Below, piece after piece: positions 48,253-49,163 of a DNA stretch of 64,000 nt (position 1 is the stretch's first letter; every line of letters starts with the position of its first letter). The notes below the pieces were generated by a model that made no database searches, was not told the DNA's origin, and worked only from the letters and a program-made list of their open reading frames with translations. The position numbers and the translations under genes are program-made. Source of the DNA: Yersinia alsatica (GTDB lineage Bacteria > Pseudomonadota > Gammaproteobacteria > Enterobacterales > Enterobacteriaceae); the NCBI RefSeq assembly GCF_902170305.1, contig NZ_CABHWW010000009.1, positions 248,001 through 312,000 of the forward strand, given 5' to 3'.

Positions 48253-48280
48253 TTGACTCACTTCGAACTATCCCTATAAT
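48253..48280 (+). promoter_or_regulatory. Sigma-70 promoter of the tRNA-Val/tRNA-Lys operon
   Basis: TTGACT at 48253-48258, 16-base spacer, TATAAT at 48275-48280, then GCGACTCC; 20 bases upstream of the first tRNA-Val. Confidence 0.8.
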
Positions 48281-48300: not shown

Positions 48301-48376
48301 GGGCGATTAGCTCAGTTGGTAGAGCATCTCCTTTACACGGAGGGGGTCATCAGTTCGAATCTGGTATCGCCCACCA
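48301..48376 (+). tRNA. valU: tRNA-Val(TAC) copy 1
   Basis: 76 bases with CCA; acceptor GGGCGAT / ATCGCCC, anticodon loop TTTACAC giving TAC. First unit of an exact 118-bp tandem repeat. Confidence 0.97.
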
Positions 48377-48418
48377 CTCATCTCTCATTGGTTTTAAAGT
48401 ATTAAAAGTAGTAGAAGT

Positions 48419-48494
48419 GGGCGATTAGCTCAGTTGGTAGAGCATCTCCTTTACACGGAGGGGGTCATCAGTTCGAATCTGGTATCGCCCACCA
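48419..48494 (+). tRNA. tRNA-Val(TAC) copy 2
   Basis: Identical to copy 1, 118 bases later. Confidence 0.97.
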
Positions 48495-48536
48495 CTCATC
48501 TCTCATTGGTTTTAAAGTATTAAAAGTAGTAGAAGT

Positions 48537-48612
48537 GGGCGATTAGCTCAGTTGGTAGAGCATCTCCTTTACACGGAGGGGGTCATCAGTTCGAATCTGG
48601 TATCGCCCACCA
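48537..48612 (+). tRNA. tRNA-Val(TAC) copy 3
   Basis: Identical to copies 1 and 2, again after 118 bases. Confidence 0.97.
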
Positions 48613-48654
48613 CTCATCTCTCATTGGTTTTAAAGTATTAAAAGTAGTAGAAGT

Positions 48655-48730
48655 GGGCGATTAGCTCAGTTGGTAGAGCATCTCCTTTACACGGAGGGGG
48701 TCATCAGTTCGAATCTGGTATCGCCCACCA
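48655..48730 (+). tRNA. tRNA-Val(TAC) copy 4
   Basis: Identical gene; its downstream spacer differs from the others and leads to tRNA-Lys. E. coli has three tRNA-Val at this locus (valU, valX, valY). Confidence 0.97.
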
Positions 48731-48757
48731 CTTCTCTTACTCTCAGTTATATATAAT

Positions 48758-48833
48758 GGGTCGTTAGCTCAGTTGGTAGAGCAGTTGACTTTTAATCAAT
48801 TGGTCGCAGGTTCGAATCCCGCACGACCCACCA
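48758..48833 (+). tRNA. lysV: tRNA-Lys(TTT)
   Basis: 76 bases with CCA; acceptor GGGTCGT / ACGACCC, anticodon loop CTTTTAA giving TTT. Last gene of the tRNA-Val-Lys operon, as E. coli lysV. Its 3' end is partially duplicated 239 bases downstream. Confidence 0.97.
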
Positions 48834-48888
48834 TTATATCAAGTGCCTCAGTAACTCCCCCCAAATACAGAAATTGCATACCACACAA
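48815..48888 (+). repeat. Direct repeat, left copy: tRNA-Lys 3' end plus flank
   Basis: 74 bases beginning AATCCCGCACGACCCA (3' strand of T-arm and acceptor of tRNA-Lys) and running into the flank CATTATATCAAGTGCCTCAGTAACTCC. Repeated with about six differences at 49054-49128. Confidence 0.85.
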
Positions 48889-49049
48889 AACGTGTGGGTG
48901 AGACAAAACTGCACGTCAGTTTTGAACAACGCTTGCGTTGGCCCGAAGGGCGAGTATCAGTATGATACGAGTAACCTGCGTTCAGGTTCGAGCCGAGCGA
49001 AGCGAGACAGCAACGCGTAGCGTTGACCCGAAGGGCGAGTCCATAGGAC
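48881..49049 (+). repeat. Array of short hairpins downstream of tRNA-Lys
   Basis: Nine consecutive small stem-loops: CCACAC/GTGTGG, CAAAACTG/CAGTTTTG, CAACG/CGTTG, GCCC/GGGC, GTATCA/TGATAC, AACCTG/CAGGTT, CAACGC/GCGTTG, CCC/GGG and GTCC/GGAC, with loops of 3-5 bases. CGAG recurs seven times as linker. The pair CAACG...CGTTG + CCCGAAGGG + CGAGT occurs twice (48927-48955 and 49011-49040). It has no useful ORF. Function unknown. Confidence 0.85.
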
Positions 49050-49053
49050 GAGT

Positions 49054-49128
49054 AATCCCGCACGACCCAGCATTATATCAAGTACCTCAGTAACTCCCCC
49101 TCAAATACAGAAATCGCATACTACACAA
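49054..49128 (+). repeat. Direct repeat, right copy: tRNA-Lys 3' end remnant
   Basis: Starts AATCCCGCACGACCCA and then differs from CCA (CAGCATT versus CCACCATT-type), so the tRNA end is non-functional; the flanking sequence repeats up to CACAA. Confidence 0.85.
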
Positions 49129-49135
49129 TGAAAAA

Positions 49136-49163
49136 CCCAAGCTGACTTCAGCCCGGGCTTTTG
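49136..49163. terminator. Terminator between tRNA operon and symporter gene
   Basis: CCC-AA-GCTG / CAGC-CC-GGG stem with an internal mismatch, A5 on the left and T4 on the right, so it could terminate transcription from both sides. Confidence 0.6.

Follow-up and report, generated by a model that had tools for sequence, protein, structure and literature searches.

RtT RNA behind tRNA-Lys in Yersinia alsatica: a hairpin element with a nested second block and an end that copies its host tRNA

Known tRNA-linked elements and the Yersinia locus

The RtT RNA (RF00391) of the E. coli tyrT operon, annotated in an E. coli database record as 'processed from tyrT transcript', reportedly goes back to Bosl and Kersten in 1991, whose paper is said to be, together with the tyrT repeat papers, the founding work on the family. 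Integrative elements residing in tRNA genes are bordered at either end by a directly repeated tRNA 3' end, a feature shared with RtT, which differs from them in that it measures only about 165–240 bp and has no room for an integrase gene. The occurrence of RtT in many other tRNA operons and Northern signals for two RtT RNAs of Actinobacillus are reported in PMC4986893, and PMC7657543 notes a tandem G.A motif for this RNA. The loss of a tRNA gene with its RtT from an E. coli strain is reported in PMC12584984, and a table of Salmonella differences in PMC2658671 lists rtT RNA, in a row that appears to read 175 bp VNTR. Small intergenic palindromes are likewise found in REP/BIME sequences, to which rtT-like attenuator-like elements were assigned in PMC2965389, although RtT differs from these in being tRNA-linked, oriented and furnished with a tRNA-end copy.

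The window, i.e., the whole stretch of 64,000 nucleotides of Yersinia alsatica DNA that was analysed, holds an element of this kind on its forward strand, as it does all features named below. A sigma-70-like promoter, TTGACT-16-TATAAT (48253..48280), lies upstream of the tRNA genes and matches 11/12 in a consensus scan, a score that by itself is no evidence of function. Four tRNA-Val(tac) genes, each within an identical 118-base unit (48301..48730; ARAGORN, with 100% matches in TRF), and the tRNA-Lys(ttt) gene that hosts the element (48758..48833; ARAGORN and Rfam) come next. The tRNA-Val units are 100% identical including their spacers over 48301-48732 (TRF), and they look like a recent expansion, since most uncut relatives at this locus have three tRNA-Val genes with unequal spacing.

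The whole element spans about 48889-49072. A left direct repeat (48815..48888; repeat search), which joins the tRNA-Lys 3' end to some 55 nt of trailer, precedes the 5' strand of the closing helix, CGTGTGGG (48891..48898), whose partner lies at 49057-49064 and which is indicated by the RNA fold (z -3.03) and by a similar arm in relatives. Next come an extra block (48905..48974), about 70 nt long and containing four hairpins, and the RtT core (48985..49053), comprising GGTTCGAG; CGAGCGAAGCGAG at 48994-49006; CAACGC/GCGTTG at 49011-49025; CCCGAAGGG at 49027-49035; and a last hairpin, GTCC/GGAC (49039-49049), flanked by CGAG on either side. An 18-nt copy of the tRNA-Lys 3' end (49055..49072; repeat search and fold) forms the 3' strand of the closing helix; it is identical to 48816-48833 in 17 of 18 letters and terminates in GCA, not CCA. 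The right direct repeat, again tRNA-Lys 3' end and trailer, occupies 49054..49128 (96% over 47 nt and 91% over 32 nt), and beyond it a terminator-like imperfect hairpin followed by TTTT was read from the sequence at 49133..49158. This hairpin is absent from the output of the consensus terminator scan and is also present in a relative (G009) without RtT at the locus.

The first-pass annotation of this DNA, which saw a chain of mini-hairpins and knew no named family for it, was wrong on the latter point. The chain is RtT RNA, with a full-length Rfam match (model 1-130) at 48951-49072 whose 80.8 bits exceed the gathering score of 45; it stands directly behind the same-strand tRNA-Lys gene, and a tRNA-end copy closes its structure. 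The same-strand position behind a tRNA, the hairpin set, the terminal copy of a tRNA 3' end and tandem G.A pairs, of which one is reported for RtT in PMC7657543, are shared with the rtT of the E. coli tyrT operon; the differences are that the host is tRNA-Lys here and tRNA-Tyr there, and that the window's element encloses a second RtT-like block, about 70 nt long. Membership of the family and its occurrence in more than one tRNA operon are already known; the nested block, the host-matched ends, the host-following arm and the reading of all CGAG as G.A pairs go beyond the open-access literature searched, and as the founding papers lie outside that literature, parts of this may have been published.

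The nested block accounts for the Rfam match beginning at 48951 rather than at the arm at 48891, which corrects the Rfam boundary for an RtT copy of this make. The extra block is missing from a sister copy elsewhere in this genome (C11:526127), and a core model (R1), built from 48 cores including the window's own, matches the block as a weak, divergent core (26.2 bits, E 1.8e-5, locus L006 1447-1527); a second, divergent RtT-like block is lodged between 5' arm and core. The earlier idea of a repeat that grows by adding palindromes fits in so far as this block is present here and absent from the sister copy; the arrays found elsewhere add whole units, such as 13 of 169 nt each in one genome (G019). 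The block also resembles AaHKsRNA22 (RF02902) over 48895-48982, but membership was rejected as the 27.8 bits fall under the gathering score of 39.8. With regard to dispersal, the window's genome holds six RtT copies over the cut-off, each behind tRNA-Lys or tRNA-Tyr, and stretches like the extra block without a nearby tRNA at two further sites, C9:244622 and C39:82554. The surroundings of the former (C9:244586-244705) form an intergenic chain of other palindromes without a tRNA, between genes whose translations resemble tmcA and ypfH; this chain contains a stretch similar to the extra block (88% over 56 nt), and a TwoAYGGAY match at 44.3 versus 43 bits lies at this locus.

Hairpins, pairing and transcription

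Within 48881-49049, eight non-overlapping perfect hairpins (stem at least 4, loop 3–5) were counted, or ten with stems of at least 3, in place of the nine announced by the first-pass annotation. Its statement that the density of palindromes is far above chance was borne out, as none of 2000 dinucleotide shuffles of the interval reached eight (mean 1.48, sd 1.06, maximum 6), and the tile at 48881 is the hairpin-richest of the window's 169-base tiles (step 20). CGAG, for which seven copies had been given, occurs six times in the interval, while a seventh, noted by eye, starts at 49049 and crosses its edge; the module of CAACG-CGTTG plus CCCGAAGGG does occur twice, at 48927-48951 and 49011-49035. 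The interval was drawn too short on the right, where the 3' strand of the element lies in 49055-49072.

The fold of 48889-49075 reaches -68.3 kcal/mol (z -3.03), a value attained by 2 of 200 shuffles, and pairs CGUGUGGG (48891-48898) with CCCGCACG (49057-49064), i.e., with the tRNA-end copy; a weaker fold results for the complementary strand (-62.6, z -2.25). In an alignment of 48 cores, which were chosen by sequence pattern, 96.2% of the cells are paired and both-side changes occur in 12 of 17 pairs (122 cells), each unequalled in 500 shuffles, and the covariation score of 0.382 compares with 0.146 in shuffles (sd 0.010; 0/500 as high) that leave the relatedness of the cores in place. Sliding the partners along the alignment abolishes the pairing. 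Further pair types show no excess in these cores (22 versus 21.0 in shuffles, 198/500 as high), and the invariance of the first hairpin is partly due to the choice of cores by pattern. Covariation and the Rfam match thus back the earlier proposal of a structured RNA.

Two G.A pairs seem to sit within a continuing helix (C-G, G.A, A.G, G-C), since alignment pair 58/77, located outside GA..GA, reads C-G in 33 of the 48 cores and U-A in 13, and on this account the CGAG "linkers" are probably helix halves, that is, halves of tandem G.A pairs. CGAGCGAAGCGAG is no Watson-Crick palindrome; given tandem G.A pairs, its letters can be folded as C-G, G.A, A.G, G-C, C-G around GAA.

Taken as a whole, the element is reasonably likely to be a host-fitted, tRNA-like structured RNA behind tRNA-Lys, copied and lost via tRNA-end repeats and with a function that is putative. 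Small hairpins, lengthened by tandem G.A pairs, would be enclosed by a helix that has its 3' strand from a copy of the host tRNA 3' end. This explanation and its rivals overlap, and the likelihoods given to them are not meant to add up to one. Family membership, covariation, the host-matched 3' end, the tendency of the arm to follow the host and the change in copy number are established by comparison of sequences.

The principal rival, a DNA-level parasite, is rather unlikely. It would be a small palindromic element, mobile or recombining, with tRNA 3' ends or the shared T-loop sequence GGTTCGAATCC as its target, and its hairpins would stay perfect because they function, or undergo correction, as single-stranded DNA. 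The stems of 151 sequences hold 18 G.T, 23 A.C and 99 other mismatched cells beside 1756 Watson-Crick cells, alignment errors included, and a second parse of 159 inserts gave 3 G.T and 2 A.C, whereas the tRNA stems of 59 tRNAs from the same loci hold 73 G.T beside 1215 Watson-Crick pairs, a control without A.C counts because ARAGORN leaves mismatches unpaired. As G.T is rare and no commoner than A.C, and as selection for RNA pairing should favour G.U, these counts speak against a view based on RNA only and in favour of the parasite, as does the block-wise change of the stems; the tandem G.A pairs are strand specific, which fits RNA (or a single DNA strand), and weigh on the other side. In one hairpin of the core (alignment columns 27-45), the arm-swapped forms CAACGC/GCGTTG and CGTTGC/GCAACG occur in similar numbers; adjacent pairs switch together as one block, and intermediates are few.

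The window's element is probably transcribed together with the tRNAs, judging from the promoter-like site before them and the consensus scan of the window, in which no terminator was reported between tRNA-Lys and the element. The suggestion in the first-pass annotation that the chain lies within the 3' part of a tRNA transcript is therefore plausible here, but does not extend to all relatives, since a terminator-like hairpin intervenes between tRNA and element in 26 of 93. Under the preferred explanation, the RNA would be transcribed with the tRNA operon and released by tRNA-processing enzymes. The closing helix seems more important than the CCA end: Lys-type units directly before another tRNA gene (n = 25) keep the helix part (mean 10.8/11) and less of CCCACCA (3.4/7), the other 60 Lys-type units scoring 10.7/11 and 6.4/7, in a test that fits the best 11-nt head first and so favours head over tail. 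Eight of the 25 still keep 6 or 7 letters of CCCACCA.

That the element acts in trans as a regulatory small RNA (e.g., in the stringent response) is stated for RtT in PMC4986893; the tRNA copy would then be no more than a relic. We regard such a role as improbable, in view of stems and loops that are swapped wholesale between relatives and of the absence or decay of the element in 3 of 13 compared loci, the window's own counted. In the mechanism preferred here, RtT would be dispensable, more a passenger or structured spacer that tRNA operons tolerate than an essential regulator.

The 3' end and the 5' arm in relation to the host tRNA

RtT elements were observed behind several kinds of tRNA, and comparison shows that they usually carry the end of their own neighbouring tRNA. 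In the named genomes, an exact core pattern without the tRNA end gave at least 176 matches; of the 176 listed, 141 were used after removal of 27 without an upstream tRNA within 2.5 kb, 5 near a stretch end and 3 duplicates. Among the matches listed, the last 18 nt of the own host are strictly the best match in 118 of 141 elements and agree in at least 16 of 18 letters in 114 of 141, including as misses three rows of one locus (L110) that scored zero as an artefact, the tRNA beginning before the stretch. The hosts of these 141 are Lys (97), Tyr (12), Ser(gga) (9), Arg(ccg) (7), Pro(tgg) (7), Arg(acg) (4), Pro(cgg) (2) and three singles, counts among the matches listed that are not frequencies.

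Two further sets gave the same picture. A search with R1 of 88 loci, chosen to cover the matches in the genus without overlap, returned 150 matches, of which the 136 with at least 35 bits were used and the 14 weaker left out; the host tail agrees in at least 15 of 18 letters in 104 of 136 (Lys 60/69, Tyr 31/37, Arg(acg) 13/14). Nine of the 136 are without an upstream tRNA in the stretch and seven stand behind tRNA-Val; by eye, six of the nine and all seven are tRNA-Lys bodies carrying the insert. A distant set consisted of 59 Rfam-model matches in 40 chosen regions outside the own family, from the order and class listings, many of them below the gathering score and six without an upstream tRNA in the stretch. 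Here the host tail agrees in at least 14 of 18 letters in 42 of 59 and the own tail beats that of every other class in 44 of 59, and the hosts Ser(gct, cga, tga), Gln(ttg, ctg) and Glu are added; the end columns of the Rfam model are tRNA-Tyr-like and cannot favour each host's own variant. Altogether, host-matched ends were seen in 13 anticodon classes and 7 amino acids among the matches listed, where the Ser classes are not independent witnesses, having nearly one common tail (own tail 18, best other class 17 or 18), and the named set owes its Glu case to a metagenome contig. In a tree of 102 inserts (70 columns; 7 of 96 inner branches starred), the host labels need 18 changes, as compared with a possible minimum of 6 and a shuffled mean of 35, which indicates that host classes cluster on the tree.

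Pattern matches were also seen in records labelled Sumerlaeota (L076), Chthoniobacterales (L149) and Chryseobacterium (L162), which may be mislabelled bins or chance; the latter two look like RtT with a tRNA-end copy, and the first shows neither a tRNA end nor, within 3 kb, a tRNA called by ARAGORN.

On the other side of the closing helix, the 5' arm likewise tends to follow the host tRNA. For 60 arms among the matches listed, the mean helix score with the own host is 7.19, against 5.07 with shuffled tails (sd 0.22, maximum 5.74 of 500), in a test that is anchored on a TGAG-like motif, misplaced in some rows, and that leaves out 61 of the 141 elements (49 of them Lys). The distant arms (n = 31) gave 7.73 versus 5.87 (sd 0.20, maximum 6.52 of 1000), this set being what remained, after removal of one duplicate, of the 32 elements taken from the 42 with a tail match of at least 14 by leaving out 10 tandem near-copies. 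The own host scores above the mean of the other classes in 49 of 60 arms among the matches listed and in 24 of 31 distant arms; among the matches listed, no such fit was found for Ser(gga) (3/7) or Pro(cgg) (0/2). A looser test, of the 12-nt tail against 60 nt and in competition with the best other class, did not discriminate (44 wins and 16 ties in 141 among the matches listed), and a flank test of the sequence before GTTCGA against the host tRNA gave 72 wins and 16 ties in 141 among the matches listed, clear only for Lys (62/97 wins) and Arg(acg) (4/4).

Since the 3' strand of its closing helix copies the end of the host tRNA, the element resembles the minihelix of the host's acceptor and T stems, with hairpins replacing the T loop. 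Such a shape could also be left by a tandem tRNA duplication that lost the D and anticodon arms and whose T loop took up the hairpins, a relic of no present function, which is quite unlikely. The repeats do include tRNA end, trailer and in some loci a terminator; the arm, as we read it, looks like the 5' strand of the acceptor joined to that of the T stem; and identical tandem tRNA-Val units adjoin. Yet the arm pairs with the copy even at the mismatch of the tRNA-Lys T stem, arms follow the host, and the covariation is strong, which tells against a relic.

Copy number, direct repeats and interrupted tRNAs

RtT was found over the cut-off in all 25 genomes of the genus, each with 1 to 18 matches at E <= 0.1, and, in three samples under stricter filters, in 32 of 60 genomes from the family, 27 of 197 from the order and 12 of 185 from the class. 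Related copies as well as compensatory changes, the lack of which had been named in advance as telling against the structured element, were thus both encountered, the latter in the 122 cells described above. In E. coli, 4686 of 5426 genomes match the Yersinia query, in 1 to 14 places, and the remaining 740 gave no match to it. At the locus between tRNA-Val and tRNA-Lys, 13 distinct loci including the window's, counted without those having an interrupted tRNA between Val and Lys, show none (2), a decayed copy (1), one (6), one and a part (1), two (2) or three (1), so that copy number varies from 0 to 3 at one locus within the genus. The relative without RtT at the locus (G009) retains the terminator-like hairpin together with a single repeat copy, and may represent either the original or a deleted state.

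Among single-unit loci with a tail match of at least 14 (146 elements kept), the repeat extends past CCA into the trailer, with at least 70% identity over 20 nt, in 39 of 70, against 4 of 70 with shuffled partners. Recombination or slippage between these tRNA-end direct repeats would be the simplest engine of gain and loss, able to multiply, delete and homogenise units. The same flanking repeats, often reaching past the CCA, also speak for a DNA-level parasite, and to our knowledge there is no enzyme known to mobilise RtT, which is counted against that reading. The draft genome (40 contigs) gave 0 matches to the Y1 (REP) transposase family PF01797; this separates RtT in this genome from REP/BIME, led to the rejection of REP/RAYT mobility, tells against the DNA-level parasite and, for the Y1 type, speaks against the transposase target that had been considered at first.

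Two forms of the element were observed. Many have a short, minihelix-like arm made of an acceptor strand and a T-stem strand, and others have a whole tRNA-Lys body, as in Photorhabdus arrays and in 11 copies of more than 70% identity in Yersinia loci, or a tRNA-Arg 3' half; in these the core lies between T-loop positions 58 and 59 in our numbering. The interrupted tRNA-Lys bodies of Photorhabdus and Yersinia and the tRNA-Arg halves with the same insert favour a parasite acting on DNA; against this, 9 of the 13 interrupted tRNA-Lys copies that R1 gave in Yersinia without an upstream tRNA or behind tRNA-Val keep TTAAAG before GTTCGA, like ordinary RtT in the same genome, and can be deletion fusions of tRNA and RtT, GGTTCGA being common to both, rather than insertions. 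The Yersinia copies were dropped as proof of insertion into the T loop on account of this TTAAAG junction.

A wider formulation, tentative and in our judgement unlikely, would take RtT as a gene-less parasite or symbiont of the tRNA genes of Gammaproteobacteria that settles at T-loop 58/59 or behind a tRNA, takes over the acceptor end, refits its 5' arm and mimics its host. Because RtT tracks the identity of the neighbouring tRNA, it offers a natural system for studying how a short non-coding element acquires and keeps its neighbour's sequence, and it lets one ask how such large structured inserts are accommodated in tRNA operons and whether RNA or DNA accounts for the preservation of the hairpins.

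In six loci (L081, L100, L112, L129, L132 and L150), the terminator-like hairpin that follows the tRNA recurs after the tRNA-end copy and so flanks the RtT element on both sides. In two Photorhabdus loci (L141 and L077), tRNA-Lys bodies stand in tandem, each with its T loop interrupted by an RtT core, and in other Photorhabdus loci some interrupted bodies are called by ARAGORN as tRNAs with a wrong 3' end.
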